This document shows, piece by piece, positions 22,730-59,728 of a DNA stretch of 62,470 bases (position 1 is the stretch's first letter; each line of letters begins with the position of its first letter). The stretch covers positions 1 to 62,470 of the forward strand of contig JAKSYS010000353.1 of the NCBI GenBank assembly GCA_022925895.1, read 5' to 3'. Origin of the DNA: Fragilaria crotonensis (taxonomy: Eukaryota > Bacillariophyta > Fragilariophyceae > Fragilariales > Fragilariaceae). The notes under the pieces are model-generated. The model worked only from the letters and a program-made list of their open reading frames with translations, did no database searches and had not been told where the DNA came from. The translations under genes were made by a program, and so were the position numbers.

Positions 22730-23290
22730 TTTTGGTCATCATTCCTTTGTCAAACCCCACGCGACCAGAGATCCGATGGTTCAATCGGCAGACGAGCATG
22801 AAATGGTCGATGATGTTTTGGGTTAATTCTTTGATGATGACTTCATGCGTGTGTGATTGAAGATTGCCAACAACGGCTACGACGTCGAACCGAAGTTGGC
22901 GCACGCTGTCTTTGCCAACCCACAATCACAACTACTTCCGTTTTTGTGTCACGACACACAACGCAGTGAATGACACCCAAAAGTAGAGAAGGCTATTTGC
23001 CGAGACGTGGCGAGAACCATCACATCAGCCGGACCTATTGCAGCTTCAATGTTCCAAATGTCCCACTCTCCGAATTGATTCACTAGTTGGATACTGTACG
23101 ACACCACATTGGCAGATGGACACCATCGATTGCGTAATCGACTCCGTCGTGTACCCTTTGAATCGAATTTGGAAATGTATATCAACTCACAATTCCCTAT
23201 GGCCCCAGAAGTATGTACTGGCGGCATTCAGTGTCACCACAGGAGTGCACGAGCCTCTCCATCGCCTCGTTTCGAGGTTATAATAAAACA
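22730..23290. repeat. RING-gene 3'-flanking repeat block, copy 1
   Basis: This block lies 3' of RING gene 1 and resembles blocks at 26390, 28300, 38220, 47873 and 50110. Shared landmarks are tttgatgatgactt, a segment with ccaaaag.gagag and cgagac..ggcgaga, and gcattcagtgtcaccacag. No frame is open across all copies, so it is not annotated as a gene. 22450-22730 is a GTAC-rich spacer. Confidence 0.6.
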
Positions 23291-23446
23291 TTGGAAGTAG
23301 CATCTGGAATGGCGATGTTGTTGTGGATGGAGTCTTGATTGAGAAATCGTCGCGATCAACTTTGGCCTTTCACGACACAAGTCACCAGAAAAGGAGAGAC
23401 GATGTCCCAACGAAAAGCGCCAAGTAAAGATTGCAGATCATCTCAA

Positions 23447-24635
23447 TCATACTGCGAAGGGGCTTGCACTTTCTCCATTCTTGATACATATGTCAACCAT
23501 CTCGTAAGTTTCAGGATCCCACATTGTTTGTCGACAATTTGGACATTCATCATGACCGCCTTGGAGCCAATTCATGATACACTCACGATGATAAGTATGT
23601 GAACACAAACCGGTCACCGTATCATCAGTAGGAACTGGAGCAAGATTAAAGCACGGATGAATACTTCACTGACAACAGATGATCAAAGCAAAGGGAAGTA
23701 GATGTATCACGTACCAAGAAATTCCATGCATATGGAGCACGAGACAGCGTCTGGAGCATCCTCACAAAATACATAGTGTTTTGATTGCGGGTCGTACTTC
23801 AAGTTACCACGCCCGCCTGAGTGTTCGTCACTTTCCAACTTTGAGGGCAACAGGTGAGAATGTGCTAAATTTTGCCGACGTTCCATACGATTCAATGCAC
23901 ATGGGCCGTACGTACCCTGCCTTCCCTCGGAAAGAGTGCCGCCAAAACGAGGGGACGACGTGACCGAGCATTTCCAATCGGCACTGTCGGCGTTGAGACA
24001 GGAATCGTCGGGAAGTTCTGTTGCGTTCCTTCACCATAACGACTTGGCGCATGATAGACACACCAGCGCCTGCATACACCAGCGCCACCATTCTGCATGC
24101 ACTTTTTGACGCAGGCACAGATACAAGGACCGAAGAAGCACACGGAAAATATAACATAAAACAATATTGCAAAAAGCTGATCTCCTGCCGGTGCAGGAGT
24201 TGGCGCGTTGGTAGCGGGGAGAAAAAGAACTGGAGAAGCAACGGGATAATAGGTTGGGGCCACTGGGGCATCCATGGCATAAGAGGGTAGAAACAAGTCA
24301 GAAACGGGAGGCGAGATTGGAGCATATGTGGGATGTAAGGTTGTAAACCAGGTGTTCTGTGTAGTGTTCTCCTGACAATCACACGTCGTAAAAATCGCTG
24401 ATGAAACGTTTGCGCATTTTTCTATCGGAATTGATCCTTGAAGTCCGGCAAGCGCGAGTTCGATGCAAGTACATGTTCCGTTAGTTTGATTTGGACACTG
24501 TGCGCTGGTTTTGGCAAATGGGTTTCCAACTTCGTATCCATCGCCACAAACGAAGCAGGTACTGCTTTGACCGGAGTTGACAGTGACAAGGAGTGATGCA
24601 ACCAAAAAACTTTGTAAACGTTCTCGGAGCATCAT
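23447..24635 (-). CDS. Membrane RING-H2 protein, gene 1 of 6 (probable E3 ubiquitin ligase)
   Basis: Predicted exons 24635-23916, 23838-23715 and 23634-23447 join in frame to 343 aa. Introns are 77 bp (phase 0, GTACGT...AAAG) and 80 bp (phase 1, GTACGT...CCAG). Residues 1-22 form a signal peptide. The ectodomain has eight cysteines (27, 30, 47, 55, 57, 74, 85, 87) around GDGYEVGNP and AGLQGSIP. A Pro-rich linker follows, then a transmembrane segment (about 153-177), a basic Cys-containing juxtamembrane part, and a C3H2C3 RING: Cys274, Cys277, Cys292, His294, His297, Cys300, Cys312, Cys315. A type I membrane protein with a cytosolic RING should ubiquitinate targets at an endomembrane or the plasma membrane. 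From mid exon 1 to intron 2 it is about 99% identical to gene 3, whereas its ectodomain resembles gene 2. Confidence 0.8.
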
Positions 24636-25490
24636 AAAGCTTGTCAAGTTGTCGAGTTCTCCTGATGAGGCTTGAGAATTGTATTCTGTAATATTCTCTC
24701 TCTTATAACCGAAGTGTGGATTTGACGATTTGACTGCTTCTCACCCCACTGCAGTATTTGGCAGGCTGCCAACTCTTGGCAGCATATGCATACACCAAAT
24801 ACTTCGAGTACTTTGTGTACTTTTCTACGTAAAGGTACTGGAGTAGTGGAGACGACATTTTGTTCTGTTGTCATTTGAGTCGTTGATCGGTTTGCGTGTC
24901 TGGGCACTGGGCACAGCCTTGGCGGCTCGTTGCTCTGGTAACAACGTGAGTTATGTTGCAGACAGAACTCTCCCTGCTAAGGAGACTCAATCGTTCGATC
25001 GCACACCCACGCTGACAGACAAGCAGAATTTGGTTGACATGTCGAGCATAACCCCTGATACGTGATACGCAATACGCGCGACGCACCGAGGTATGTCGTG
25101 TTATATAAATGCACGTTAAAATCCCCATGCAAACCGAAGAGTATCAGGATATCCGCACAGGATGCATCCATTCCACAAATCCGGGAAGCCAACGCCTTTA
25201 TATCGTTCTTATATTAACCGCAACGACGACAGGAGTCAGCAAATTCTATATCCCGCCCGCCCCCTCCGTAATCGGACACCTTGTGCCCTCTTCTGGTTAG
25301 CGAGGCAGCGGCTCCTAGTGAAAACGCCTTTACCCATCCAACCGCCATATCGCGACATGTTCTACACGACCTCACCACGAGAGCGAGGAGGGCAGAATGC
25401 TGGCTGTAACAGGAGTATCCCGCCTAGCTTCCCGCTTTTAGGTCTTGGTATGCATGTCAGACAACAGACAACCCTGCACATTAAATCTGT
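24636..25490. other. Spacer upstream of RING gene 1
   Basis: No gene seen. It contains a GTAC-rich patch (24795-24850) and the motif gagtcgttgatcggtttgcg at 24878, which recurs in similar form upstream of other RING genes. Confidence 0.5.
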
Positions 25491-25494
25491 TTCG

Positions 25495-26949: not shown

Positions 26950-28034
26950 TCATACTGCGGAGGGGCTGGAACTTTCTCCATTCTTGATGCATGCGTCAAC
27001 CATGTCATAGGTTTCGGGATCCCACATTGCTTGTCGACAATTCGGACAATCATCATGACCGCCTTGCAACCAATTCAGGATGCACTCACGATGATAAGCA
27101 TGTGAACACAAACCGGCTACTGTATCATCCGTAGGAGCTGCAACAACATGGGGAAGTGGATTAATAATTGGTCAACGTCAGATGCTTGAAAGTTAAAGGG
27201 AGGCATTTGTACCACGTACCCAGCAATTCCATGCATATGGAGCACACGGTAGCGTCTGGAGCGTCCTCGCAAAATACATAGTGTTTGGATTGCGGGTCGT
27301 ACTTCAAGTTACTTTTTCGCCCGCCTGAGTTTACGTCACTTTCCAACTTTGAGGGCAACAAGTGAGAATGTGCAAAACGCTGCTGACATTCCATACCATC
27401 CATCATGCGCCGTACGTACCCTGCCTTCCTTCGGAAAGAGAACCGCCAAAACGAGGGGACGTCGTGACTGAGCATTTTCATTCGGCGCTGTCGGCGTTGT
27501 GACAGGAATCGTCGGCAAGGTCTGTTGCGTTGCTTCACTATAACGACTTGGCGCAAGATACACACACCACCGCCTGCACAAGCCACCCTGCTTCGAGCAT
27601 TGTATTAGGCAGAAACAGCAGCAAAAAAAACCGACCAAGATAACTGTAAACAAAACATTAAACAACGTTGAATCGTTTGAAGCCCCTGGCGGTGTAGGAG
27701 TTGGGGCGATCATGATCGGAAGTCGGATAATCGGTCGGATGCCAAAAAGATAGGGTGTGGCGCCTGGAGCATAAGTGGTCTTTTCCTGACAATCACATGT
27801 CGAAAAAACCGCTGAAGAAACGTTTGCGCATTTTCCTATTGGAATTGATTCTTGAAGTCCGGCAAACGCGAGTTCGATGCAGGTACATTCAGTTTGATTT
27901 GGACACGGCACGCTGGTTTTGGCAAAAGGGTTTCCAACTTCGTATCCATCGCCACAAATAAGGCACTGTTTGGAGGTGACCCTGACAAGGATTGCAGCAA
28001 CCAAGAAGCTTTGTAAACATTCTCGGAGCATCAT
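26950..28034 (-). CDS. Membrane RING-H2 protein, gene 2 of 6
   Basis: Exons 28034-27420, 27346-27220 and 27137-26950 join in frame to 309 aa. Introns are 73 bp (GTACGT...AAAG) and 82 bp (GTACGT...TGCAG). It has a signal peptide, an eight-Cys ectodomain close to that of gene 1 (GDGYEVGNPFAKTS), the shortest Pro-rich linker of the family, a Cys-rich transmembrane segment (FCCCFC) and an intact RING-H2 (CSICMELL...CSHAYHREC...CPNC). The C-terminal tail after the RING, with WDPETYDMVD, is conserved across the family. It reads as a functional gene. The role as E3 ligase is inferred from the RING alone. Confidence 0.8.
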
Positions 28035-28299: not shown

Positions 28300-29250
28300 G
28301 GATTGGTTTGCGTGTTTGGGAAAGCATGCCAGGGAAATCCCTTCATGCGCCACGCTTTCTCCAAGACCCAGAGACCCGAAAACCGATGGTTCTATTGCCA
28401 TATGAACATGGTATGGTCGATAATGCAGTGCGTTATGTCTTTGATGATGACTTCATGCATCAGCGATTGCAAAATTGCCAAAAGGCTACAGTCCCACACA
28501 GTCCCACAGATGTTGGTAGCCGCCGTCGTTGCCCGTCCACAAATCACGAATGCAGAGAATGATTTCCAAAAGTCAAGAGAGCCATCACCCGAGACGCGGA
28601 GAGGAAAACCACAACAGCTGAACCAATTGCAGTTCGTTCCACTCGCCGCATTGATTCACTGGTGTGGTGTTGTACGAAACCGCGTGGAACCTGTGCTTGC
28701 TGGAATCGGTGTTTCGTTGGACAGCATCGATTGCCTAACAGTCTCGGTCAAGCACCGTATGTATCGAATCTGGAATATGCTCACCAACCCACAATTTTCA
28801 AATGCCAGTATGATGCTGCTTCGATATCATAATGTAACGGTAGACCTAATATCCAGAGTCGGGGACATTTCTGCGAATCGAGGCTCCCCATCGCCCTGTC
28901 TCGAGTCATTGGTGGGCGCAACGACCGGAGTCGGCAATTGTGCTGCGAATCAAGACTTGATTGAGAAGTCGTCGCGATCAACTTGGCCTTTCACGACATG
29001 GGTCACCGGGAAAAGGAATGTTGTGTCGCTAAGGTATTTGCTACCAGCACTCAGTGACGCCACAGAAGCGCCCTCGGCTCTCCATCGTCCTGTCTCGAGA
29101 CATTGGTGAACGAAACATCCGAGTCGGTAATACTGCTCCGCAAATCGAGACTTGATTAGAAATTGTCGCAGATCAAATCGGCCTCATATGGCCTGAGTCG
29201 CCGGAAAGGGGAAATCGTGGCCTCGACGACAAATGTCAAGAGAAGAATGA
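28300..29250. repeat. RING-gene 3'-flanking repeat block, copy 3 (longest)
   Basis: It begins gtcgtggattggtttgcg, matching 47873, and runs through the tttgatgatgacttcatgca landmark to the 3' end of RING gene 3. A plus-strand frame (28255-29109) is open but is not conserved in other copies, so it is not called a gene. 28035-28300 is a GTAC-rich spacer. Confidence 0.6.
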
Positions 29251-29262
29251 AGATCATCTCAA

Positions 29263-30511
29263 TCATACTGCGAAGGGACTGAAACAGTCTCCATTCTTGA
29301 TGCATTCGTCAACCATCTCGTAAGTTTCAGGATCCCACATTAGTTGTCGACAATTTGGACATTCATCATGACCGCCTTGGAGCCAATTCATGACACACTC
29401 ACGATGATAAGTATGTGAACACAAACCGGTCACAGTATCATCAGTAGGAACTGGAGCAAGATTAAAGCACGGATGAATACTTCACTGACAACAGATGATC
29501 AAAGCAAAGGGAAGTAGATGTATCACGTACCAAGAAATTCCATGCAGATGGAGCACGAGACAGCGTCTGGAGCATCCTCGCAAAATACATAGTGTTTTGA
29601 TTGCGGGTCGTACTTCAAGTTACCACGCCCGCCTGAGTGTTCGTCACTTTCCAACTTTGAGGGCAACAGGTGAGAATGTGCCAAATGTTGCCGACGTTCC
29701 ATACGATTCAATGCACATGGGCCGTACGTACCCTGCCTTCCCTCGGAAAGAGTGCCGCCAAAACGAGGGGACGACGTGACCGAGCATTTCCAATCGGCAC
29801 TGTCGGCGTTGAGACAGGAATCGTCGGGAAGTTCTGTTGCGTTCCTTCACCATAACGACTTGGCGCATGATAGACACACCAGCGCCTGCATACACCAGCG
29901 CCACCATTCTGCATGCACGTTTTGACGCAGGCACAGATACAAGGACCGAAGAAGCACACGGAAAATATAACAAAAAACAATAATGCAAAAAGCTGATCTC
30001 CTGCCGGTGCAGGAGTTGGCGCGTTGGTAGCGGGGAGAAAAAGAACTGGAGAAGCAACGGGATAATAGTTTGGGGCGACGGGGGAGATTGAACCTGCTAG
30101 TGCAGGAGTTGGGAAATTGGTTGCGGGACGCAATGAAAGTGGAGAAGCAACGGGATAATAGGTTGGGACGACTGGGGCAATTGGGGCAAATGGAGCAAGA
30201 CTGGGAGAAGACGTTGGAAACCAGGTGTTCTGCGAAGTGTTTTCCTGACAATGACATGCCTCAAAAATCACTAAGGAAACGATAGAGCACTCTGAAATCA
30301 ATCCTTGAAGTCCCGCAATCTCGAGGTCTTTGCAAGTGCATAAAGTTGCTGATGACCCCTGCACTGGATCAGAACAGCTTAAGCTGGTTCTGACGTACGG
30401 GCTTCCAACTTCGTATCCATCGCCACAAATGGAGCAGTTTCTACTTGGTTCGGAGATGACATTGACAAGGAGTGCTGCAACCAAGAAACATTGTAAACGT
30501 TGTCGGAGCAT
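29263..30511 (-). CDS. Membrane RING-H2 protein, gene 3 of 6
   Basis: Exons 30511-29732, 29654-29531 and 29450-29263 join in frame to 363 aa, the longest member. Introns are 77 and 80 bp with the family's splice sites. It has a signal peptide, an eight-Cys ectodomain of the second type (GDGYEVGSPYVRTS, CTCKDLEIAGLQG), and a Pro-rich linker that contains an internal duplication (PTYYPVASPLSLRPATN and PNYYPVASPVLFLPATN). A transmembrane segment and an intact C3H2C3 RING follow. Exon 3 ends ...KNGDCFSPFAV. The start is the only Met before the hydrophobic segment. Upstream, 33 bp away, a hAT-type MITE has inserted into its 5' flank and may alter its promoter. Confidence 0.8.
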
Positions 30512-32810: not shown

Positions 32811-35800
32811 TTATATGAGATAGCCAAATAAGTGGTACGCCAACTCCAAGTGATGGGTACGAGGAGATGCCGAAAACCGACTCAAAGACGACACGGCAAA
32901 AGTTATATCCAATTGTCCAATGGTGCACGCCCATTGTGCCATACCGATAAGCGTTTGATACCGACGGATTCCATCTTCCGCTAACGGTACGCTCTCGTCA
33001 AGCTCTGGGTGGCACCCTTCAGGAAGAGGCGTGCGATGAGTATATAGGTCACCATCGAGTCCAAATTCAGACTCGATACGGCGAATGCACTCCTTAATAT
33101 AGGTGGCACATCCAAGTACCCATGCGTTTTCATCCTTCGAGAAGTTGTAGTCATTCCCCAAGTAGTGTGCCGGTGGGCCGACAGACTTCAAGAGAAACGC
33201 TGCTGCAATTTGGTCCTTCCAGCGGTTTGGATTACGTGCGACGATCTTGAAATCGTCCACATGCGTACACACATAGTCGTAACCATCGAGCTCCTCTCTT
33301 TCCCGCATCCATACATCACGATCGTATCGAGAAGCGGAGAAGCCCATGGCTCGCAAGAAATCAGCGAAGTGCGCTCGAAACGCCCTGCTGGATGAACGCA
33401 ATCCATACAACGCCTTCTTTAAGATTAAAATCGAACCTTCACGCTCACCAAACTCCGGACCTGCCCTGGAGTATATCTTCTCCAAGCAATCAGCTGTAAT
33501 AAAGGCATTTCCGATGTCGCCGCAAAGGATCTGAAGCCCATCCCGATGTGCAATGAGATCCAAGAGGCGTACACTTATGCCTTTAACAACCGTGGACCGG
33601 GTATTGATTCCCATCGGATCTACCATGTGACCACCTGCAACCAGGCGCGCCTTGCGACGTCCGTCTTGCTTGACTTCAAAAATCATAGTAAGACGTGCCA
33701 TTTGAAAATCCGAGCTGGGTTTGTAGTCCGGGGGATGGAAAGAGAAGCAGTGCAAAGCAAGAAGGGATTCAATTTCCTTACGGATTGCATCCGCCCATAA
33801 CGTAGTACCATCCTCGCGATCGAGCTCGTAAGCGTGTTTCACGCTGCGAGGGATGATCACTCCGTATTTTACTTGCACTGGACGACTGAGCCGCCCAGGT
33901 TTACGCCGCTTTCGTTTACCCCCGGTGGTAGCAACCGAATGGACAACTCGTCGGATAAGACGAGTGCCATCTGGCAACTTGTCCGAAATTGTGAGGTGTC
34001 GTCCATCGTTGCCTGGAGTAAGCACCCCGTCAGAGCAGCGAAGGATGCGACGCAGCACTCGATTAAACTGTCGCTGGTAACTCCGAGCCCAACGCGTATA
34101 TCTTCCACCAGAATAGCGTCCGCCCGAGTTACCAACCTTATTCGCAAGGATATACCGTGCAGTTTCACTTGGATAATCTCGCTGGACTTGCGAGAACGGA
34201 ACAAATGAAGTTTCATCCGTTTTCCATTGCACTTCCATCATCAAAACACCGTCTCGCCAATCGTGAGAACGTATCGAATCGAACATCTCATCAGTGTCCC
34301 GGTCTTCAGCAACGCGGGACAACTGATGTGACACATTGTCAAGAATTGCGGGTGTCAATTCCTCGTCCTGAGTAACCAAAGAGCCTTCAAAAACTGGTCC
34401 TGGAAGATGGTCATCAACATCAGCACGGTCGTCACCAGTGCGATCCGTCGGGGTGGCAACGGCAGGGACAGCAACAGCATCTGGGTTATCTGACGTCACC
34501 GATTCGAATACTTGTGGCACAGCACGAGATGGGTAACGGATGTCTGATGAGGCAGCAAGGACAGATTGGTCATGGGGAGACGTCAATGTGGGAACGGAAG
34601 ACTGAAGATGAGTTCCCAATAAAGACGACTCTCCGGCATGTTGGGGCTCATCATCCAACAGTCGAGGGCGTGTCAAGGCTGGACCATGAACCTCGAAGAT
34701 CCCATCGGTGGTGACGGCTTCCGACTGCAAATCAACGTTCAAGGACTCCACTGCAACGGATGGCGCAGGAAAGGATTCGGATTGAGCAACAGCGTCCGGC
34801 ATCATTTCAAGCTCCTCTGAATCCGCTGGTGGGTCCTCCAACACAGTAACCTCGTCGTTACAATAAAATGTAAGATGGTCACCAGCAAGAGAACTCAAGT
34901 GATCGCTTCGAGTAGTCTCCAGCTCCCGAGATGTTGGCGAGTCCGAATAACGACGCCGAATAACAGATCGGGCGAGAACTTGAGGTCTTGCGTTCGTCTC
35001 CGTCTCGTCAGGTTCCGTCAGTATGAGGTAGCAAAAAGCATCCCCAACATTAGCCGCAATTCCCAAAAACCTACCCTTTGACATCTTTGGATTCGGGAAT
35101 GACTGCCGGGGTTGGTGAAACCAAATGGGTTCCCAAAAAACGAAACGGAAGACACCTATGTCAGGACGGTCACCCCAATGGCACTCGTGCGGAGTCAACC
35201 AATCCAAACTCCGACGAGCGAGGACAGTTCGTACCAAGCACATATACTCAAGAGCATAACACCAATAATCCAAAGGTGCACCTGTCGCCAACAATAAATG
35301 CATCGTGGCTGCTTTTAACGCACCGCCACGTCGCTCAGCAAGGTTCTGGTTTGGATGATGCGCCTCCGTGAACTCTGACCTGATGCACAGGCTTGCCAAG
35401 TATGAAATCCATCGTTTACCTTTGAACTCCGGAGCGTTATCAGACTTGATGACGTTCGGAGCACCACAGTCTGCAATCATACGAGGTAGAGTTGTTGGAC
35501 TTTGCGAGCGCCGTTGCATCAAATAGACAACATCCAAACCTGTCCTCTTGAACGCGAACAAATTCCAACATGTGTAACCCCCGACGGAAGTAATGGAAGA
35601 GAAGAAAGTATCGACGTAACAAATATCGTTAGACCGTCGAACTTTAAGCTGTGGTAAACGGGTCTGAAAGTGATCCCGCATTATCTCCCGAGTCTCGGAC
35701 TCCACTGAAGGAACAAGCTGCGTCGTCGCACACAACGTTTTGTGAACGACATGATTAGGAGCAAAACCAAGAGTCCGCTTCCAATCCAAAGGGAAGGCGC

Positions 35801-36428
35801 GTCCGTCACCATGCTCATTGGCCGATCGACGTCGAGAATGAACTCGATCCATCGGCTCATAAGGAACGGTACCATCCGTGATATTAACGGATGGCAAAAC
35901 TTGGAGCTCCGCGTCAGTGATCGGATGTACGACGAAGAAACACTTGGTACCATCGAAGTAAAATGGCATCCTGGTCGACTGGAATCGCGCCATTTGGAGC
36001 CCAGGATTCCCATGCACATCACGTTCACAGCGAGCTCGGTCATCGATCCCATTGTCAACGTTACGCAAGGATTGATGAACCGAAAGAAGTGATTCCCGCT
36101 GTGCGGGATTCGAATCAAACAGTGCTTCATGGACATATGCGGCATACTCGCGACCATCTTCGCACTGTAGTTTGGCTACAGCCGAAACAACAGGAAAGAT
36201 CTCGCCAACGTTCCGCCCAGCAAAAGCACCTGTCATCATCACCTCCCGCCCAGTGTATTGAAGAATTCTCCAAGCGGTTGTCACCAATGTCTGATCATTT
36301 CCAGTATCAGACACAAAAATCTGTTGGGAGGAATCGACCTCCGAGATAAACTCGTTGATCCGAGTGACTTGCCGAATAACTCGAATAGCCGACTCCTCCC
36401 ACCAGTCAAGCCCGCTCTGTGACCACAC
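32811..36428 (-). pseudogene. Copia pol polyprotein, lacks RNase H
   Basis: 1205 aa. The aspartic protease motif is VSDTGND (about residue 40). The integrase DDE triad is in YVDTFFSS, KSDNAPEF and NLAERRGG. The reverse transcriptase has FEVKQDGRRKARLVAGGH and the catalytic THVDDF. The frame ends at HLFGYLI where element 2 continues for over 200 residues with RNase H. It overlaps the gag end by 23 bp in the +1 frame. The frame itself is otherwise open. Confidence 0.85.
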
Positions 36429-37948
36429 GACGGCTCTTCTGCAATCTAATCCGTTTCCGCTGCGGCTCCTCTAGAGTAGAAGACTGGTCAGTAGAAACGG
36501 AAGCAGTACCCTCCGACTCGCCCGTAGACGACGTCATAGACGAGGAGGATGCCACAGAAGACGTCGTCGTCTTAGCACGTCGCGAATTGGGCGGATTTGG
36601 ACGATATGCCTCAACGAATGTGGCATACTCAGCATCCAATTCCAGCTGAGATCGACCCTTATGGGCATCAGTACGCCAATCCAATATCAGTTTGAACAAC
36701 GCGGCTCCAAAGGACTTTTTCCACGTGTCAGGGAGACGAGGAATAATCCATTTCCGATTGTTATTGGCTGCTGACTGTCCACTGGAGGGTAGCGACTTAC
36801 CGGACCGAGAACCTGATTGCTGCGGAGTGCGGCGCGAGTAACGAGTACCCGTAGCGCCATCACCCGACAACTTCGAAGCCTGGTCCTTCATCATCAAAGA
36901 CGTTTCCCGTTCTCGAAGCTCCGTCAAGATCGACTCAACTGTACTATCTGGTTTATGGACAATCGAGTCCCTTACCATGTCGAAGTCGTCATCCTGGATA
37001 GCAACGAGAAGGAGCGCCCGCAGAGTGTCAACGTCTTCGGAAAGGCGTGCGTTATTCTTACGTAAACGCTGAAGACAACTGCGAAACTCAGATATGAACT
37101 TCGTCGCCGTCGAATCAGGATCGAGGCGGATATTCAAGAGTCGTCGTATGTCAAACAAGACGACATTCGCCCGATTGAGAGCGGTATTATAGTACCCCTC
37201 CAAAGCGGACCAAAGGGGTGCAGGGACTAGCTGTTTATCATCAAGCATAGCCTGCGCAATCGACTGCGCCTGTCCCCCATGGACCGCTCCTCTGAGCGAA
37301 TAAAACACACTCTCCGCCACCTCAGGGTGCTCGGCAGCCATCGCGCTGTCATCCAGGAATCTCCCGAAACCAGCAGTGCCCAATACGTTAATGGTGGACT
37401 CACGCCAAGTGAAATAATCTTCATCCTGGCCAGAGAACTTATCCAAAGTTGGGACGGCTTTCTTATCGAAGACTTGGATCGCGCGACGCGACGGAGAGGT
37501 CGGAGAAGCAATGGACGTACCCTGGCTGTTTAACAGGAGCCGTCACAGCTTTCACAATGTCATTCATCGTCGTTTCAGGCGTCAACGATCCAATCCGAGC
37601 GAAGTCAACAATATAGCCGAGCTTCTTTATGAGTACGAGAGATCGCAACTCCTCTGGAATGGCCACTCCGTCGGAAGAATCCGACAACGAAGTGGAGACG
37701 TCCGCCGACGTGAAAACCATCAAATCCAACCACCAACACGTTGCCTGCCACTTCAGGGTGAACAGGGTATCCAAACTCGCACGAAGAATGTCAGCATTGG
37801 TATCACCCGAAACAAGGAGGTTCAGAATCATCTCCAAGACCGCAGGTTCAAACACGCTTGACGTAACCGCCGAAGTACCACCGCCCTTGTCATCAGGTGA
37901 CACAGCAAGGGTAACGGGGTGCGTAGTCGGAGAAGTTGGTGGCGCCAT
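36406..37948 (-). pseudogene. Copia gag, one frameshift
   Basis: Two frames, 37948-about 37518 and about 37518-36406, give a Gag collinear with that of element 2 (MNDIVKAVTA; then KKAVPTLDKFSG, NRANVVLFDIRRLLNIRLD, IRLQKSRRVVTERA). The shift lies near CAGCCAGGGTACG. No zinc knuckle is visible in either Gag. Confidence 0.8.
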
Positions 37949-40280: not shown

Positions 40281-40464
40281 AACGTCGATTTCGGTGTCAG
40301 CAGCTTAGCCCTGTGCCAATGCATAAATGGATCCAACTAAGAGAACAATAATTTAACTCCGTTTTCGTTCTCGCCCTTCGATAAATCATCTCACTTCCAT
40401 AATCTGATGGCGACCATCAGGGTTGTCGTGTTCATATCTGGTTCTCAGGTGGAGGCAGTCTTTG

Positions 40465-41016
40465 TTACGCAATCAGTGCGAATAAGTCGTCAACATGCTC
40501 TACACCCGAAAGAGAGCAGGCCTCGTCGTTGTCTTCACCCATGAGTAAACGTCGCCAGAATTTGTCATCCTCATGGTCTCCGAGGAAGACTGCATTTGGA
40601 TAATCAGCAAGTGTCCTTTCCAATTCGTGATTCATGTGATTTTGCTCCAACGAGTCGTGCATGGATGAGTCGATCAGCACTTTATTCAGTGCGCACTCCA
40701 TGCCATCCAAGTCATCCAAGTATTTCATCGTCAACGACCCGTGCAGACCCAGACTGTCTGGAGCCGTAACGACGTTGAGACCATGTTGCTGTTGAGAGGC
40801 AGAGTTATCGCCGGACCTTGCATCACTGGCACCGATCGAAGCAATTCGGGTGACCTCGTCATTGAAATCTGAGTCCGGAATTGTCGTTCGCGACGCTACT
40901 GCGTCGTCGTTGAAGTCATTGTCCCAATGACCAGTAATGGAAATCTCGTCGTCCGTGGAAAAGATTGAGGAGGAGATTGACCAGCTTTCATCTGAGTCAG
41001 ATGCGGTCGGCGTTCC
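40465..41016 (-). pseudogene. Truncated duplicate of the DUF6824-type gene
   Basis: It is nearly identical to the 3' part of the 50651-51532 gene (MKYLDDLDGMECALNK, DNDEACSLSGVEHVDD) and is truncated at 41016. There the parent continues toward the DUF6824 domain and this copy switches to GTAC-rich DNA. The domain itself is absent. A 3-bp insertion (gaggaggag) and single substitutions separate the copies. The duplicated tract extends 3' to 40281. Confidence 0.8.
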
Positions 41017-41901: not shown

Positions 41902-41928
41902 ATTAACTTTTCCTTGCTTACTTTGACC

Positions 41929-43458: not shown

Positions 43459-43479
43459 CTGATTGCAGAGGAGCCCGCT

Positions 43480-46400: not shown

Positions 46401-47676
46401 AGCGGGACCTGAGTTTGACGAACGCGAGGGATCGATTCTGATTTTCAAGAAAGCGCTTTACGGTCTCCGATCGTCGAGTCGCGCTTTTCGGGCACATTTC
46501 GCGGATTTTCTTCGTTCGCTTGGTTTTTCTGCGACGAGGTACGACCGTGATGTGTGGATGCGGCAACGTGAAGAGTGCGATGGGCATGACTATATTTGTA
46601 CCCACGTGGACGACTTCAAGATAGTGGCTCGCGACCCGGAACGTTGGAAGTCGCATATCTCTGCGGCGTTTTTACTCAAATCAATTGGACCCCCATCCTA
46701 CTATTTGGGTAATGACTATAACTTTTCGAAGGATGAGAATGCGTGGGTTTTGAGTTGTGCTACCTATTTAAAGGAATGTGTTCGTCGAATTGAATCTGAT
46801 GACGAATTACCTCTTGATGGTACTCTATGGACTCATCGCACTCCCCTTCCAGAAGGATGCCACCCTGAGCTTGACGATAGCGCATTGTTAACGGACGTGG
46901 GAATCCGCAAGTATCAAATGCTTATCGGGATGGCGCAGTGGGCATGCACTATTGGGCGGCTTGACATTGCATTTGCCGTCTCTTCTCTCAGCCGATTCTC
47001 GGCAGCTCCGAGGGAGCACCACCTCGAGTTGGCGTTGCATTTGTTTGGCTATCTGAAAAAGAATCCCAATCGTCGCATCGTTCTCGATTCTCGACCGTTA
47101 GTGATCGATGAGGGTTTGCGACATGATTCCTTCCACCCCGATTTCCTTGACGACTACCCGGACGCGAGCGAAGACGTCGGTGACGACTTTCCTAAAGCAT
47201 TTGGTCGCGAGTTGGAAACCACCGTCTTTTTTGACGCGGACCATGCGCACGACCATGTCACCAGACGCTCCATTTCTGGTCTGATTGTTTTTGTTGGCAG
47301 CACCCCAGTTATATGGACTAGCAAACGTCAGGGCTGTATCGCAACTAGCACGTATTGTGCTGAGTTCGTTGCTATGCGATCAGCTGTGGAAGAGGCTATT
47401 TCGATCCGATATATGCTCCGATGCCTGGGAGTCCCGGTTACTCGACCTACTGACTTGTTTGGCGACAATTTTGGAGTCATCCAGAGTGCCGAGATCCCGG
47501 AAGGTGAATTAAAGAAGAAGCACATTGCAATATCATACCACTATGTGCGTGAGGCTATTGCAGCTCGGATCGTTAATGCCGCCTGGTGCAGGTCCGACGA
47601 GAACTTCGCGGATATATGTACGAAGGCACTCGGATCTAATATCTTCCATAGTATAGTTGAGGATTTGATGGCCTAA
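43480..47676 (+). CDS. pol: Copia Pol (protease, integrase, reverse transcriptase, RNase H)
   Basis: 1398 aa, uninterrupted. Protease motif VSDTGND is near residue 25. The integrase catalytic residues are in ACYVDTFFSS, KSDNAPEFKG and NLAERRGGS. A Ser/Asp-rich linker of variable sequence follows. The reverse transcriptase has EVKQDGRRKARLVAGGH, GDIGNAFITAD and THVDDF. The RNase H has VFFDADHAHD, ATSTYCAEFVAM and FGDNFGV. It lies in the same frame as gag, 21 bases beyond the gag TGA, so it may be made as Gag-Pol by read-through of UGA-CUG rather than from its own ATG. Confidence 0.9.
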   Translation: MRVLRRVTRLDGFISQADSSQQILVSDTGNDQTLITSVWRVIGTTGREVMMTGAFAGRNVGELFPVVSAVAKLIGEDGVAYAAYVHEALFDSNPAQKESLLSVHQSLRDRRNGIDDRARCERDLHGNPGLQAARFGDKVVPFYFDGTKCFYAVYRLTEEEERSLPRVVLTDGSVPYDPTARLHSRRRPTTSPDLTNWKHHLGFIPDHVVSKTLSVTSQLVPTVEAETREIMRDHFQTRLPELRVRRVNDACYVDTFFSSIPSVRGFTCWNLFCFQRTGLDVVYLMRRRSQSPTTLPRMVAECGAPLTLKSDNAPEFKGKRWVDYLNSMAIQSVFTEAHHPNENLAERRGGSLKAATVHLLRVTGCPLQYWCFALEYVCLLRTVLARRSLGWLTPHEVHWGDRPDISMFRFVFWQPVWYYQPRQSFPKTKMLKGRFLGIAQNVGDAFCFLILTEPENDDDPPPQVLARSVIRKRYPREEPPVVETTSLSAPLLFYKSDGITPLEDPASFSTSDIEDIYSDVVADCPSDTRPPFGAMSSHPDGARDEVSDAFDDGILEVYGPLTTRPRLSNDDSDPRTSDLSTLGPHSQLLHSEERSDSPLRDHTTTFATVEQPFSSPISPNDPVLQSANYGGHSGFPAAVPTADPLNDGSMDDRPMSPVGPGSNGDIRQITQDEDVEPPVLDDVSYQLSRVTADSSDDAMFERLDGHSWKDGVLFLVIRWKTDETSCLPFSQVKLDFPRETADYVLKHKLGCADGKYLGGRYTRWARQFNRQYARVVRRILRGHRSMPIRHEVATPIIRVSERLPDGTRLIRRVTREVSNKSGMSRKRKKPGRISRPVETKYGVAVPHNVRHALELDREAGNTYWADAIRKEVASLLALDCFEFHDPDYKPSSEFQWTKLTMIFEVKQDGRRKARLVAGGHMVDPMGVSSRSTVVKGISVRLLDLIAHRDQLPILCGDIGNAFITADCLEKIYARAGPEFDEREGSILIFKKALYGLRSSSRAFRAHFADFLRSLGFSATRYDRDVWMRQREECDGHDYICTHVDDFKIVARDPERWKSHISAAFLLKSIGPPSYYLGNDYNFSKDENAWVLSCATYLKECVRRIESDDELPLDGTLWTHRTPLPEGCHPELDDSALLTDVGIRKYQMLIGMAQWACTIGRLDIAFAVSSLSRFSAAPREHHLELALHLFGYLKKNPNRRIVLDSRPLVIDEGLRHDSFHPDFLDDYPDASEDVGDDFPKAFGRELETTVFFDADHAHDHVTRRSISGLIVFVGSTPVIWTSKRQGCIATSTYCAEFVAMRSAVEEAISIRYMLRCLGVPVTRPTDLFGDNFGVIQSAEIPEGELKKKHIAISYHYVREAIAARIVNAAWCRSDENFADICTKALGSNIFHSIVEDLMA

Positions 47677-48547: not shown

Positions 48548-49688
48548 TCATACTGCGAAGGGGTTTGTACTTTCTCCATTCTCGATACATTTGTCAACCA
48601 CCTCGTAAGTTTCAGGATCCCACATTAGTTGTCGACAATTTGGACATTCATCATGACCTCCATGCACCCAATTCATGATACACTCACGATGATAAGTATG
48701 TGAACACAAACCGGTCACCGTATCATCTGTTGGGACTGGAGCATCATTAAAGGACGGATCAATACTTCACTGACAACAGATACTCAAAGCAAAGGGAAGT
48801 AGATGTATCACGTACCAAGAAATTCCATGCATATGGAGCACGAGACAGCGTCTGGAGCATCCTCACAAAAAACATAGTGTTTTGATTGCGGGTCGTACTT
48901 CAAGTTACTACGCCCGCCTGAGTGTTCGTCACTTTCCAACTTTGAGTGCAACAGGTGAGAATGTGTTAAATGTTGCCGACGTTCCATACGATACAATGCA
49001 CTTGGGCCGTACTTACCCTGTCTTCCATCGAAAATAGTGCCGCCAAAACGAGGGGACGTCGTGACCAAGCATGTCCAATCGGCAATGTCGGCGTTCTGAC
49101 AGGAATCGTCGGGAAGTTCTGTTGCGTTCCTTCACTATAAAGACTTGGCGCATGATAGATACACCAACGCCTGCATAAACCAGCGCCACCATTCTGCATG
49201 CACTTCATGACGCAGATACAGATACAAAGACCGAAGAAGCACGCGAAAAAAATAAAATCAAACAATATTAGAAAAGGCTGAGCTCCTGCTGGTGCAGGAG
49301 TTGGCGCGTTGGTAACTGGAGCAGCAACGGAATAATAAGTTGGGGCGGCTGGGCCGACTGGGGCAAATTGAGCAAGACTGGGAGAATACGTTGGAAGCCA
49401 GGTGTTCGGCGAAGTGCTTTCCTGACAATGACATTCCTTGAAAATCACTAAGGAAACCACAGAGCACTCTGAAATCAATCCTTGAAGTCCCGCAATCTCG
49501 AGGTCTTTGCAAGTGCATGAAGTGGTTGAGGATTCGTGCACAGGATCAGGACAGCCTAAGCTGGTTCTGACATAAGGGCTTCCAACTTCGTATCCATCGC
49601 CACAAATGGAGCAGTTTCTGCTTTGTTCACTGGCAACACTGACAAGGAGTGCTGCAACCAAGAAACTGCGCATAACTTCTCGGAGCAT
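48548..49688 (-). CDS. Membrane RING-H2 protein, gene 4 of 6
   Basis: Exons 49688-49017, 48939-48816 and 48735-48548 join in frame to 327 aa. Introns are 77 bp (GTAAGT...AAAG) and 80 bp. It has a signal peptide, an eight-Cys ectodomain of the gene 3 type (GDGYEVGSPYVRTS), a Pro/Ala-rich linker, a transmembrane segment (LFDFIFFACFFGLCICICV) and an intact RING-H2. Its upstream region (49690-49785) retains the uninterrupted sequence into which the hAT MITE inserted beside gene 3. Apparently functional. Confidence 0.8.
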
Positions 49689-50428: not shown

Positions 50429-50650
50429 AACGTCGATTTCGGTGTCAGCAGCTAGCCCTGCGCCAATGCGTAAATGGATCCAACTAACAAAAAAACCGGA
50501 ACTAATGCATAAATGGATCCAACTAAGAGAACAATAATTTAACTCCGTTCTCGTTCTCGCCCTTCGATAAATCATCTCACTTCCATAATCTGATGGCGAC
50601 CATCAGGGTTGTCGTGTTCATATCTGGTTCTCAGGTGGAGGCAGTCTTTG

Positions 50651-51532
50651 TTACGCAATCAGTGCGAATAAGTCGTCAACATGCTCTACACCCGAAAGAG
50701 AGCAGGCCTCGTCGTTGTCTTCACCCATGAGTAAACGTCGCCAGAATTTGTCATCCTCATGGTCTCCGAGGAAGACTGCATTTGGATAATCAGCAAGTGT
50801 CCTTTCCAATTCGTGATTCATGTGATTTTGCTCCAACGAGTCGTGCATGGATGAGTCGATCAGCACTTTATTCAGTGCGCACTCCATGCCATCCAAGTCA
50901 TCCAAGTATTTCATCGTCAACGACCCGTGCAGACCCAGACTGTCTGGAGCCGTAACGACGTTGAGACAATGTTGCTGTTGAGAGGCAGAGTTATCGCCGG
51001 ACCTTGCATCACTGGCACCGATCGAAGCAATTCGGGTGACCTCGTCATTGAAATCTGAGTCCGGAATTGTCGTTCGCGACGCTACTGCGTCGTCGTTGAA
51101 GTCATTGTCCCAATGACCAGTAATGGAAATCTCGTCGTCCGTGGAAAAGATTGAGGAGATTGACCAGCTTTCATCTGAGTCAGATGCGGTCGGCGTTCCC
51201 CCGGCGTTGGTCGAGTTGGAGTTCCCATTGCTGTAAATGCGGGCTTGACGAGAGGCATCGCGAAACAGGTGAGCGACTTTAGTTCGTGCTTTGCCATTGC
51301 TTAGCCTCACCCAGTCACTATCATCGCTCGTCCTCATGACAAATACCATGTTCATCTTGAACAGCTCTCGAGTCGTGGCATCAACCAACCTGGTCTTGGC
51401 AGTTCGTCCCATCGCCTTGTCCATGTACTGTTCGAGGCGTCTTTCCACAACTCGTCGACAGATCCTGTTCCCTTCATGGTTGTAGTTTCGCTGTCCCCGG
51501 CCGCATACGATGTGCTTGTTGTGGAGCTGCAT
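50651..51532 (-). CDS. DUF6824-type domain protein
   Basis: 293 aa. The N-terminal 100 residues carry HIVCGRGQRNYNHEGNR (the GRG...H-x-GN signature), a helical stretch with VVERRLEQYM, and KARTKVAHLFRDAS. This agrees with my memory of DUF6824, a domain abundant in diatom proteins of unknown role and often proposed to be nuclear. The C-terminal two thirds are acidic and Ser-rich, low complexity. Start chosen at the first Met, six residues before the domain. A truncated duplicate without the domain lies at 40465-41016. Cellular role unknown. Confidence 0.7.
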   Translation of the reverse strand: MQLHNKHIVCGRGQRNYNHEGNRICRRVVERRLEQYMDKAMGRTAKTRLVDATTRELFKMNMVFVMRTSDDSDWVRLSNGKARTKVAHLFRDASRQARIYSNGNSNSTNAGGTPTASDSDESWSISSIFSTDDEISITGHWDNDFNDDAVASRTTIPDSDFNDEVTRIASIGASDARSGDNSASQQQHCLNVVTAPDSLGLHGSLTMKYLDDLDGMECALNKVLIDSSMHDSLEQNHMNHELERTLADYPNAVFLGDHEDDKFWRRLLMGEDNDEACSLSGVEHVDDLFALIA

Positions 51533-53165
51533 GTTGCTGTTTTACATCCACCTGGGAATATACCCGTGCTCGAGATGGTGTGAAAAAAGTTGACTTTGCG
51601 CAGGAGAATCTGATCTTGCAAAAGCGTTCCTCCAATTCCATTGGTCAATTCTCAATCACAGTTGGGACATCACCGCGGCAGAACCCTCAACTTGACTAAT
51701 GTAAGTGTCGACGTCATGAGGCGACCATCCGAAGGTTGCCCGGTACCAGGTACTTTTGTCGACATGTAACACCTGGTACAAGTTGTACGTTTGTGCCGAA
51801 CGGGGAATTCTGCACCCTCGCACCATTCTTTCACATTGTAAATGTCGCATACGCGTTTAAGGTTTATAAGGGACTTTCAGCAAATCTTTAAAAAGGTGTG
51901 GGCGCGCGCAACCTTAGCATTCGTTGAGTACCGGATTGTGAGCTCCGGCACTCAGAAGTTCGAGTTGCAAAAAGTTAGGACCCTTCTGGAAGGTCCGGAC
52001 GCACCGCCGGAGTCGTGGAAAATCCGAGATCAAGTACTGTATACTGTATACTACAAGTACTAGAAGCAGGATGACGATATCTGAATAGGCAATTCGAAAG
52101 ATCTTACTGAGTTCTGTCGAAATACGTTTCGAATTTTATAATTTGAATCGACAGTTGTCTCAGAATTTTGAGTCGTATTTTTTGGGGATTCTCGGCCCGA
52201 ATTCATTAAGCTGACTTGGTTGGACACGTGGTGATTCGCCTAGTTAAATTATCGACGCCAGCCCGTGGTCACCCTATCTCCTAAGTTCATGATATTATTG
52301 CTGATTTGGAGACAAGAGATCATGGCCTTGAATATTGCCAGTGAACAAAACAAAAATTAAGATACCCTTAATGGTGTAATTTGATGAAAACTAACCAAAG
52401 TATTCTCAGGTAGTATTGATGAAGTAGTCTAGTACTATACCAGTAGTACGTACTAGGCTCACGAGCTGCTGGATCATCTCTTAAAGCAATCAATTGATTT
52501 GTTATATCAATGACAAGGTCTGTCTTCTTCATTGTCAACATGCCTTTAATTCTGACACCAAAATACAATTTGAGAATGTCTTTGAGCATAGTCCTCCGTC
52601 AAAGTTGTCCCCAGCAGCCGCAGTCTTGAAGCGCCCCATCAATTCCGTGAGGGTAGGGCATCATCTCACATTGTTGTACTTCTTCTGTTGATTCAGTTGC
52701 TTTTTTGCTTTTCTACCTTCTTCAATGCTTTCTGATACCATCTGATCTGTTGATATTGTCCAGCCATTTGTTTCATTGCGTGTTTGATCGCAATAAGTCT
52801 AGACCTACCGTGGTACGTGGTACTAGTACGTAGCGTCTACCGGGTGCAGGTACTGAACTATGGGAGCAGCACGGAATGCGTAGGAGCGCATGCAGGAGCA
52901 CACCTGAATGTCGATTTTTATTGCATAAATGAATAGATCATGGCAAGGGGATTCCAGAGCCGCCAATTTTTTTGTTATTGATTAAAAACTGAACGAGTAA
53001 AAAAATTATCAAATCCTACGGCAGTTTCTACGCAACGTATACCACAGCCATTTGTCCAGAAGTGTCAGCTGTCCATCCAAGTCAACCTGCTTCTACCGGT
53101 AGTTCCCATGCTGAGTCGTTTTCAACTGAAAAAATCAAGGCCGGGGCGTTTATCATGTGGATCCT
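51533..53165. other. 1.6 kb without recognised gene
   Basis: 51656-51850 holds a short open minus frame without similarity. GTAC-rich patches lie at 51740-51785, 52425-52460 and 52810-52860. Nothing else is supported. Confidence 0.5.
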
Positions 53166-55697: not shown

Positions 55698-56839
55698 TCA
55701 TACTGCCGACGGGCTGTGCCACTCGTCATCCTCGATGCATTGTTCAATCATTTCGTAGGTTTCGGGATCCCACATTGGCTGTCGACAATTTGGACATTCA
55801 TGATGGTCCCCATGCAACCAATTCATTATGCATTCACGATGATACGCATGTGAACACAAACCAGTCACTGAATCATCTGTAGGGACTGCAACAACATGAA
55901 GATGAACCGGTGAATACTACATTATTGACGCCCGATGCTAAACCGCAAGGAAGGAAGTTGTTGTATCACTTACCAAGAACGTCCATGCATATGGAGCACG
56001 CGACAGCGTCTGGAACATCCGTGCAAACTACATAGTGTTTTAATTGTGGGTCGTACTTTTCATTACTGCTGCGCCCAGCATGCGGGTGACCGTCCGATTC
56101 CAGCTTTGGAGACGACATGCGAGGAATGTGTCAGAGTCAGAAGTCGCTTCATACAACATTGCTACGAGCGCCCATCCCTTACCTTGCCTTCCTTTGGAAA
56201 GAGTGCTGCCAAAACAAGGGGACGTCGTGACTGTGTTTCTTCTGCAATCGACACTGTCGGCGATGCGACAGGAATTGTCGGCAAGTTCTGTTGCGTTTCT
56301 TCAATGTAGTGACGTGCTGGTGCACGATAGAAAGTACAAAGTTGTCTGCAAACGTCAGTGGCGTGATTATCCATCAAGCAGCGTACGAGACAAAAACAGA
56401 AGCAAGGAACGAGTATGAACAATGACAATAAGAAATCAAGTTCAATCTCGCTTCGACCTCCTGGACGTGTAGGAACTGAGACAGAAGTAATTGTGGGAGG
56501 AGTTGATGCTGGATAAATGGTTGGGGCGATTGGCGCATCACTGGGATTTGTGAATGGAGTTGCGTTCTGTGTAGTGTTTTCCTGGCAATCACATGTCGAT
56601 AAGATTGCGGAGGAAACGTTAGAGCAATTTTCGGTCGGAATCGATCCTTCCAATCCGGCAAGCGCGAGTTCGTTGCAAGTACACGAAGTGAAATTGTGAC
56701 ACTGAACGCTGGTTTTGGCCAAGGGACTTCCAACTTGGTATCCATAGCCACAAATGAAGCAGGGACTTCTTTGTTCAGAGGTGATAGTGACAAGGAGTAC
56801 AGCAACCAAGAAACGTCGTAAACGTTCTCGGAGCATCAT
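55698..56839 (-). CDS. Membrane RING-H2 protein, gene 5 of 6
   Basis: Exons 56839-56183, 56103-55974 and 55885-55698 join in frame to 324 aa. Introns are 79 bp (GTAAGG...AAAG) and 88 bp (GTAAGT...TGCAG). It is the most diverged copy: CGYGYQVGSP instead of CGDGYEVG, a different transmembrane segment (SLFILVPCFCFCLV) and juxtamembrane part. All eight ectodomain cysteines and the RING ligands (CSICMDVL...CSHAYHREC...CPNC) remain. The frame is open upstream to 57016, but MMLRER matches the start of its paralogues. Apparently functional. Confidence 0.8.
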
Positions 56840-57430: not shown

Positions 57431-58191
57431 GAGCGTATCAATGGCCTGGCTGGTCGGAGCTATTGGAGGTATGCTCAGGATTGTCTTCGTAAAGGACATT
57501 TAAAACCAGTCGATGTGCCTTGAGGTGTGGTGCTGGTGAAAACCATGTCACACGACCTGATGTTATTGGTTCGGATGTTTAAACCAGCATTCTATCGTAC
57601 TCGGAATACATCCTCTATGTGGTCACATCTATTTGAATTTGGATTGGTCAGCACGGTGTTAAATGTTAGGGGAATGTTGTTGGATTGCCATTCTGCGTGT
57701 CGACTGGAGCCATTTACGTAACCAGGATAAACAGCGGCGATTGATTTCCGCATCATGAGTAGTAATGAATTCTCTCATAAAGGTTTAGCCTCGACTGTGA
57801 TGGCATCCCTCACACCATTACCTTCCGATACAAACGTCTCATCACGGACGCCTCCTCCGCCTTTGGTCTCAAAGTCGTCAATGATTCCTTGCAAAGCGAG
57901 CGCATTGAGAGGCGAGAATCGACCCAAGTGAACCGAATTCGTGAGGGAAAGCATTCCTTCGACAGCATATTCCGGATCATCCGGATGGTAGGTTCGGCAT
58001 CCAAACTTGGCACACGAGGATTCAACCGACTCAATGAGTTCATGAATGAATTGCTGAACAATCGCAATGGTTGAATTCTCATCATTAATCATGGTACGGA
58101 CTTAATGAGCATCGTCGAATTTGAGCCATGATCGATCATCACTGTCATCGTACGTTTGGTCGTGGACTTCGTCGGTGGGATTCGAGTCTAT
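57430..58191. repeat. Segmental duplication, left copy (pairs with 61440-62250)
   Basis: Aligned landmarks include ggaggtatgctc, gatgttattggtt, and the entire short acidic protein frame. Confidence 0.75.
57775..58191 (-). pseudogene. Pseudogene of the short acidic protein at 61823-62242
   Basis: It is collinear with the right-hand copy, but the start codon is ATA (58191-58189) instead of ATG, and a Gln codon CAA is TAA (58104-58102). The rest (AIVQQFIHELIESVESSCAK onward) stays open to 57775. Because two independent knock-outs accompany an otherwise conserved frame, the loss looks recent. Confidence 0.75.
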
Positions 58192-58509
58192 TTTTGATTT
58201 TTGATTTTGTGGTTTGTGGTTTTTTACAGAAAGTGTACTACTTTGAGTTATTGTGAATGATAAAGTGAATCAATCTCGAGCTGCCTTCCGATTGAAAAGT
58301 CACCCGCGCAACTGCTCTTGTTTTCAACGTTCAGAGAGTGTCTTCCTTCCTCGTCAGGAGGTTGGAAAGTTGATGTACCACTCAGCTACTTTAACGCCGT
58401 TGCGCAATCAACCTCACACTCAGTCGGGACGCGTCATTGCAATCATACTGCATCTTCATTTGATGCGAATTCAAGGCTTATCCCGCTCAATCGAAACTCA
58501 TCATCTTAA

Positions 58510-59728
58510 TCATACCGCCGATAGGCTGTGCCACTCCTGATCATTTATGTATTGGTCAACCATCTCGTAGGCTTCGGGATCCCACATCGGTTGTCGACAG
58601 TTCGGGCAGTCATCATGGTCACCTTGCAACCAGTTCATGATGCACTCACGATGATAAGAATGTGAACACAAACCAGTCACTGAGTCATCTGTAGGGACTA
58701 CAACAACATGAAGACACGGACAAATACTTTAGTGACGTTGGATTCTCAAAGACATGCAAGGGGAAGTAGATGTACCACGTACCAAGAAATTCCATGCATA
58801 TCGAGCACGAGACAGCGTCTGGAGCATCCTCGCAAAACACGTACTGTTTAGACTGCGGATCGTATGTCAAGTTGCTACGCCCGGCCTGTGGTGATCCATC
58901 TCCTTCCTGCTTTTGGAGAAGAGTCCACAAGTGAGAATGTGTCAAATGCAATGGTCGTTTCGTTCCATGGCAACAAGACATGCCATCACGCGCCGTACTT
59001 ACCCTACTACCTTCCTTCGGAAAGAGTGCCTCCAAAACAAGTGGTCGTCGTGATCGAGGATTTCCAATCGACAATGTCGGCGTTGAGACAGGAATCGTCG
59101 GCAAGGGATGTTGCGTTCCTTCAGCATGATAAATTGGCGTCGGCAAGTGCTGTTGCGTCACAGTTCCTTCACTATAACGACTTGACGCATGATAGACACA
59201 CCAACGCCTGCAAGCACGTGCGCCACGATTCGTCAAGCGTCGTATGAGGCAGTAACAAATGAAAGGAATCAGCACGATGAGCGATACAAAAAGAACAGTA
59301 TACAAAGTCCAAAGCTCCTGTTTGTGTAGAAACTGGTGCCTGGGAAGTGGGGCGAAATAAACTGGGATAATGTGATGGGGCGACTGGGGCAACGGGGGCA
59401 AATGGAACAAGACTGGGAGAATGCGTTGGAAACCATGTGTTCTGCGAAGTGGTTTCCTGACAATTACACATGTCGCAAAAATCACCAAGGAAACGTTAGA
59501 GCACTCTGAAATCAATCCTTGAAGTCCCGCAATCTCCAGGTCTTTGCAAGTGCATGAAGAGTCTGAGGACCCTTGTCCTGCATCAGGACAGCTTAAGCTG
59601 GCGCTGGCATACGGGCTTCCAACTTCGTATCCATCGCCACACATGGAGCAGTTTCCGCTTGGTTGAGATGTGACACTGACAACGAGTGCTGCAGCCATCA
59701 AGAAGCTGTGTGTATCATGTCGGAGCAT
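58510..59728 (-). CDS. Membrane RING-H2 protein, gene 6 of 6, with two compensating frameshifts
   Basis: Exons 59728-59003, 58909-58783 and 58697-58510 join to 346 aa. Introns are 93 bp (GTAAGT...AAAG; in frame and stop-free, so retention is tolerated) and 85 bp (GTAAGT...TGTAG). It has a signal peptide, the first seven of eight ectodomain cysteines, a transmembrane segment (VLFVSLIVLIPFICYCLI) and an intact RING-H2. From about 59460 to 59315 it is read in a different frame from its paralogues (the usual CDCQE and Pro-rich linker are visible in the neighbouring frame), then returns. The result is an open frame with a novel linker. The tail has an extra repeat (THLPTPIYHAEGT-like). Confidence 0.7.

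Follow-up and report, generated by a model that had tools for sequence, protein, structure and literature searches.

Six clustered genes for candidate RING-H2 ubiquitin ligases with a cysteine-rich ectodomain in the diatom Fragilaria crotonensis

Contig JAKSYS010000353.1 of the diatom Fragilaria crotonensis (62,470 nucleotides, called the window here; labeled C285 in a 62.1-Mb genome of 881 contigs, to which the other C-numbers also refer) carries an array of six minus-strand genes that we propose as candidate RING-H2 ubiquitin ligases. The genes are named by their start coordinates (Table 1). Their predicted proteins share one domain order: an N-terminal hydrophobic stretch, a cysteine-rich ectodomain, a variable linker, a transmembrane (TM) segment, and a C-terminal RING. 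Among the literature matches listed from open-licence papers, this combination was not found described, and the diatom E3 ubiquitin ligase passage that was found in PMC8027222 deals with one RBR gene and one U-box gene. As judged by profile searches, the ectodomain is a variant, mostly with eight cysteines, of a six-cysteine domain present in many secreted-type proteins of the same genome, and comparison of the array copies indicates that they are mosaics of ectodomain and tail. By analogy, we give an even chance to the view that the array encodes lumenal-domain RING-H2 ligases that work in the manner of plant RMR/PA-TM-RING receptors but bind through an unrelated domain.

Gene structure and predicted protein architecture

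In all six genes, intron 1 (73-93 bp) is in phase 0 and intron 2 (80-88 bp) is in phase 1, with GT...AG borders throughout. Exon 1 is open and closes at a GT donor just past an LFP-type motif (6/6), exon 2 measures 124-130 bp, and exon 3 has a constant length of 188 bp across the six copies. An earlier note on this DNA had proposed six minus-strand genes with two introns of the same place and phase and a 188-bp third exon. All six starts were right, and the exon structure was recovered from the sequence in each copy. The interval given for the array starts ~700 bp past the point where the last exon ends (23447).

Table 1. Coordinates of the array genes and of the features discussed in the text
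Feature	Coordinates	Strand	Details
g24635 (343 aa)	23447..24635	-	exons 24635-23916, 23838-23715, 23634-23447
g24635 ectodomain (8 Cys)	24557-24375	-	TM segment about 24176-24120
g28034 (309 aa)	26950..28034	-	exons 28034-27420, 27346-27220, 27137-26950; ectodomain 27965-27789
g30511 (363 aa)	29263..30511	-	exons 30511-29732, 29654-29531, 29450-29263; ectodomain 30436-30248
g49688 (327 aa)	48548..49688	-	exons 49688-49017, 48939-48816, 48735-48548; ectodomain 49613-49425
g56839 (324 aa)	55698..56839	-	exons 56839-56183, 56103-55974, 55885-55698; ectodomain 56761-56585
g59728 (346 aa as it stands)	58510..59728	-	exons 59728-59003, 58909-58783, 58697-58510; ectodomain 59650-59468, seven Cys
Duplicated block	23327..24268	.	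93.7% identical to 29144-30084; linker through TM segment and cytosolic part into 3' flank
Mosaic breakpoint in g24635	24353..24366	-	ectodomain end; 5' side like g28034/g56839, 3' side like g30511/g49688
Shifted-frame stretch of g59728	59268..59471	-	2-bp insertion at ~59471; small gaps at ~59301-59268 regain the frame

By Kyte-Doolittle analysis, each of the six proteins begins with a hydrophobic stretch and has one strong hydrophobic segment further in, from which a type-I, single-pass membrane topology is predicted. Pro, Thr, and Ser together account for 24-45% of residues 96-150; the linker had been described as Pro-rich, which applied to five of the six proteins, the linker of g59728 being out of frame. 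NxS/T sequons are present in the first 200 residues of all six proteins, and a SRRPLVLAALFPKEG-type motif located ahead of the RING is largely conserved. PF13639 matched above the cut-off in the three spliced array proteins scanned (3/3) and, exon by exon, in all six. The RING ligand spacing, C-x2-C-x14-C-x-H-x2-H-x2-C-x11-C-x2-C, is identical in the six copies. Every copy likewise has the Ile of CxIC, the Trp, the CP, and the trailing Arg; in RING ligases, these Trp, Pro, and Arg residues contact the E2 (ubiquitin-conjugating enzyme) or ubiquitin. A hydrophobic start, a predicted TM segment, and the C-terminal C3H2C3 RING that had been proposed were all seen in 6/6 by hydropathy, PF13639, and ligand spacing. 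We infer E3 activity for these candidate RING-H2 ubiquitin ligases.

The array proteins were compared with known ligase families. Members of the RMR/PA-TM-RING group (Arabidopsis RMR1-4; RNF13, ZNRF3) have the order of signal peptide, lumenal domain, TM segment, and cytosolic RING-H2 that is predicted for the array proteins, and also share the E2-contact Ile. Their lumenal domain is PA, whereas the array proteins have a small six/eight-cysteine domain followed by a mostly Pro/Thr-rich linker. Three array proteins were scanned for PF02225, and none had a PA match even at E up to 1; the six PA matches in the genome are all on other contigs. On the evidence of these three, the array proteins fall outside the PA-TM-RING/RMR family. 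Nor are they the PA-RING of this genome, because a PA-plus-RING protein sits on C146. In the latter (L047, G000 C146:29700-31300), the PA domain lies directly before the RING-H2, and no obvious TM segment or signal peptide was visible by eye. The plant ATL family, which is also large and has a TM segment toward the N-terminus and then a RING-H2, differs from the array proteins, which have an ectodomain. Assignment to ATL was rejected: the spacing is 14/11 in 6/6, compared with 15/10 counted from the model sequence given in PMC3161093. A search for literal GLD only, from residue 151 on, found none in the six proteins. The earlier suggestion of a PA-TM-RING/ATL-like logic with an unrelated ectodomain therefore stands for PA-TM-RING, with no PA match in the three proteins scanned, and falls for ATL on spacing and literal GLD.

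Relatives of the ectodomain and family members elsewhere in the genome

When the g24635 ectodomain was searched against its own genome, 43 matches were obtained at E up to 10, 17 at loci encoding both ectodomain and RING (ecto-RING loci) and 26 elsewhere (E 3.1e-4 to 0.45). Twenty stretches with such matches outside ecto-RING loci were fetched for closer reading. The pattern CxxC[G/R/E]xG showed the domain in 18 of them, and a profile made from 16 non-RING domains matched all 20 with E values no higher than 3.3e-6; the 16 rows come from these same stretches, with L023, L025, L034, L035, L038, and L040 not among them. The number of distinct non-RING genes is below 20 because some stretches are near-copies (L021/L023 and L024/L025, by eye). 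None of the 118 PF13639 matches falls within the 20 stretches. Many of the stretches have a signal-peptide-like start and a Pro/Thr-, Lys-, or Asp-rich tail, and some have several copies of the domain. Five domain matches are located on C786; with one of these copies as query, 45 matches were obtained at E up to 1, 37 of them at E up to 1e-3, and 35 of these 37 were outside ecto-RING loci (several of their contigs being read by match only).

In the reverse direction, the non-RING profile found all six array proteins (E 1.5e-14, 8.3e-14, 4e-13, 4.2e-9, 2.4e-8, and 2.7e-8). The likeness of the array ectodomains to the non-RING proteins is beyond chance, because they scored 30-50 bits, while the best of 1200 shuffled N-terminal parts reached 15 bits (E 0.0013). 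The six-cysteine secreted-type domain (CxxCGxG ... C ... C ... CxC, frequently accompanied by Pro/Thr-rich tails) is thus homologous to the array ectodomain; its proteins are without TM-RING and sometimes carry several copies, whereas most array members have two extra cysteines.

No convincing Pfam match was found for the 26 domains scanned (four families, one member each, best E 0.013), and no ectodomain relative was detected among PDB sequences (best E 0.048 over 20 positions). Nor did searches of viral and prokaryote collections turn up a convincing relative; the lone match spans 17 query residues and is taken as chance. The ectodomain is therefore nameless in Pfam, and no characterised family of other function was found for it in Pfam or PDB sequences; it is nevertheless not confined to the array, since the domain occurs in many non-RING proteins of the same genome. 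The six-cysteine domain is probably common in diatoms.

Cysteine counts were determined in an alignment of 26 domains, which omits g59728, the C650, C872, C14/C543, and C652 loci, the second C307 locus, and several non-RING copies. Eight cysteines were present in seven domains (five array genes, C273, and C696), six in 18, and seven in one. C3 and C4 are missing in all 16 non-RING domains and also in C250 and C108, while the C307 domain has C3 and C4 and is missing C1 and C6. Each of the pairs C3/C4 and C1/C6 is therefore present or absent jointly in 26/26 domains, which suggests disulfides C1-C6 and C3-C4, the C1/C6 case resting on one row.

With a blended third exon as query, 73 genome matches were obtained at E up to 1. 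A profile-supported ectodomain together with a RING was found at the six array genes and on C250, C273, C108, C696, C307 (two loci), C650 (two), and C872 (two). Identity between the C872 and C307 loci is 98.7% and 99.4%, and C872 is taken as the second haplotype of C307. The total is 16 ecto-RING loci, or 14 after merging of haplotypes, with at least eight outside the array; counts from these single-protein searches are lower bounds, and the TM segments outside the window were read by eye. Limiting the family to six genes, as had been done, was too narrow, since members are found on seven other contigs, C872, the presumed second haplotype of C307, being one of the seven. Ectodomain matches were weak at C14/C543 (99.8% identical to each other) and at one C652 locus: the 26-row profile gave E values of 1.6e-4 to 5.2e-4, and the non-RING profile gave 3.4e-5 to 0.0017. 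At the other C652 locus, no ectodomain profile match was obtained, and this locus is assigned by eye only.

On C29 (with similar matches on C151) and on C669, TM-RING genes encode a TM segment, an ...IFP/MFP juxtamembrane motif, and a RING of the same type. They are like the array genes in these features, in the RING intron, and, in most, in the CP.CR..MWD tail, but differ in the ectodomain, none being found by profile search in the fetched stretches of C29, C669, C437, and C643. C643 and C437 resemble the C29-type genes less clearly, and no TM segment was seen for C437. Of the 19 loci scanned outside the window, 15, among them those of C29 and C669, have a phase-1 GT after CSICxExxG; L009, L018, L020, and L044 escaped this pattern. 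We read this distribution as a TM-RING scaffold that probably gained a secreted domain, although loss in the C29 type is possible. Both gain and loss stand because the tree of cytosolic parts has one of its 20 inner branches starred and 16 open. By eye, an R..xVL..LFP-type motif at the end of exon 1 is common to members with and without the ectodomain, amid a drifting linker (array genes and L001-L005, L008, L010-L012, L018-L020, and L041-L044). L042 and L043 (G000 C29:63800-78200; similar matches on C151) hold another tandem array, in which the TM-RING genes lack the ectodomain, and several of these genes have a long RING insert between the sixth and seventh zinc ligands.

Mosaic copies, selection, and decayed ectodomains

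The array copies are segmental duplicates with flanks included, in agreement with the clustered, duplicating family envisaged earlier. In the comparison of g24635 with g30511 that yields the duplicated block of Table 1, the stretch holding the ectodomain is only 70% identical. In 80-column blocks, identity between the two genes is 72-83% up to the linker and 93-100% in all but the last tail block. No synonymous change was found in their TM/juxtamembrane region, and the ectodomain dS is 0.46.

MaxChi was run on up to 60 triplets with 1000 permutations; 22 were at the floor (uncorrected p of about 0.001). Their breakpoints fall in several places, and weight is put on the large ones. The g24635 breakpoint in Table 1 comes from four of the seven triplets listed for this gene, the other three giving 24396, 24254, and 24212. 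With g28034 and g30511, the breakpoint of g24635 falls at nucleotide 270, nine bases past Cys8, and informative sites like those of g28034 number 35 of 48 to its left and 14 of 174 to its right. Two ectodomain classes, g24635/g28034/g56839 and g30511/g49688/g59728, are found on exchangeable tails.

The ratio of nonsynonymous to synonymous substitution rates (dN/dS) was calculated by the Nei-Gojobori method for 15 pairs, which are not independent and in which conversion distorts dS. In the RING (exons 2-3), dN/dS was 0.11-0.39 (median 0.22), and in the ectodomain, it was 0.29-0.86 (median 0.63). These values indicate clear purifying selection on the RING and looser constraint on the ectodomain, the comparison that the earlier note had called for. 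By this pairwise measure, no positive selection was seen in the ectodomain, its dN/dS being below 1 in 15/15 pairs.

Eight cysteines had been expected in all six ectodomains and were found in five. In g59728, there are seven, and the linker is out of frame, because of a 2-bp insertion: Cys7 is followed by VIVRK in place of xCQE, and Cys8 and the Pro/Thr linker are lost. The spliced frame is open throughout despite the insertion, and the placement of the frame-restoring gaps, near the TM start, depends on the alignment. Four of the 14 loci that remain after merging, namely g59728, one locus of C307/C872, and the two of C650, have frameshifted or cut ectodomains. The frameshifts could be assembly errors, though the C307/C872 case is common to both presumed haplotypes.

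Proposed function, alternatives, and surroundings of the array

If the array proteins work like RMR/PA-TM-RING receptors, the six genes would be recent members of a type-I RING-H2 ubiquitin ligase family, with a compact Cys-rich domain on the lumenal or outer side and a variable linker, an RRPLVLAALFP-type juxtamembrane motif, and the RING-H2 on the inner side. The lumenal domain would capture a soluble or surface partner, possibly a secreted six-cysteine protein or a ligand common to those. The RING would then ubiquitinate the receptor itself or a neighbor, and the complex may be sorted to the endosome or vacuole; ligand, compartment, and sorting role are guesses, the last by analogy with RMR/PA-TM-RING. 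RMR proteins recognise cargo by the lumenal PA domain, and they are retained in the Golgi when made ligase-dead. Changing the CxIC Ile of Arabidopsis RMR1 (I234) to Tyr abolished E2 binding and greatly reduced activity (PMC12552968). The array would offer a candidate set of PA-less membrane receptor ligases for diatom-type algae, and the secreted-type domain, common in this genome, has no Pfam model. If ligands were found, the array would represent another route, beside PA-domain receptors, of joining a lumenal binding domain to a RING tail, and receptor turnover in diatoms would be open to direct test.

Several observations weigh against this proposal. The splicing of the six genes is a prediction from sequence conservation. 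A second, weaker hydrophobic segment (1.81-1.97, Kyte-Doolittle) lies within the ectodomain of g30511, g49688, and g59728, so that a single-pass topology is put forward only as the probable arrangement. Structure prediction of the ectodomain, one of the checks suggested earlier, was poor (mean predicted local distance difference test score, pLDDT, 54). The TM-to-juxtamembrane region is near neutral, with dN/dS of 0.59-1.91 in the 14 pairs for which it was defined, and the signal peptide, with its few sites, gave 0.45-2.20; values over 1 in either region carry no significance figure. Finally, some copies may be dispensable, given the damaged ectodomains of g59728 and three loci elsewhere.

The exchange of two ectodomain classes between tails would also suit surface signaling receptors like ZNRF3/RNF43, in which an external ligand alters the turnover of a partner and the array diversifies specificity by ectodomain swaps. 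The ZNRF3 RING was indeed among the matches when the array RING was searched against PDB sequences. However, this match is unspecific, as 51 distinct sequences were found at E up to 0.001 and 7c96 (a RING-type E3 ubiquitin transferase) and EL5 ranked ahead of ZNRF3. Moreover, the ectodomain dN/dS stays below 1. We regard such signaling receptors as unlikely. Quality-control ligases of the endoplasmic reticulum (ER) or Golgi, whose lumenal domain senses misfolded secreted six-cysteine proteins of its own domain family, would account for a domain common to receptor and many secreted-type proteins, but would rely on homotypic binding, and we consider them quite unlikely. We hold it to be very unlikely that the array consists mostly of tandem copies in decay that have no special role and stay numerous through duplication in a transposon-rich region: the frameshifted or cut ectodomains and the RVT_2 retroelements among the copies speak for it, but RING dN/dS is low in 15/15 pairs, and splice-site positions are conserved in 6/6. 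More speculatively, the array could be part of a receptor-ligase repertoire in which gene conversion swaps ectodomains of the genome's own secreted family on a common RING tail, wiring mate, symbiont, or matrix recognition to ubiquitin-driven receptor turnover; this would be a long shot.

Between the third and fourth copies, two RVT_2 retroelements, which we take to be Copia-type, lie in opposite orientation at 32811-37542 and 41638-47676 and are ~70% identical over their aligned parts. The window also contains a gene for a DUF6824 protein at 50651-51541, a family whose presence suits a diatom. A 699-bp stretch occurs twice, 10 kb apart (40318-41016 and 50504-51199; 99.3% identical, partly over the DUF6824 gene), suggesting a recent duplication. 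Inverted repeats of ~600 bp at 4-591 and 3923-4526 (93.5% identical) enclose open reading frames, one with a SWIM zinc finger, and the whole element is presumably a MULE-type DNA transposon. At 13990-15582, there is a tandem array with units of ~150 bp, in which more than one reading frame stays open for long distances. Outside the gene models, 57443-58224 and 61443-62273 are 75.8% identical, and one of them lies between the fifth and sixth copies.

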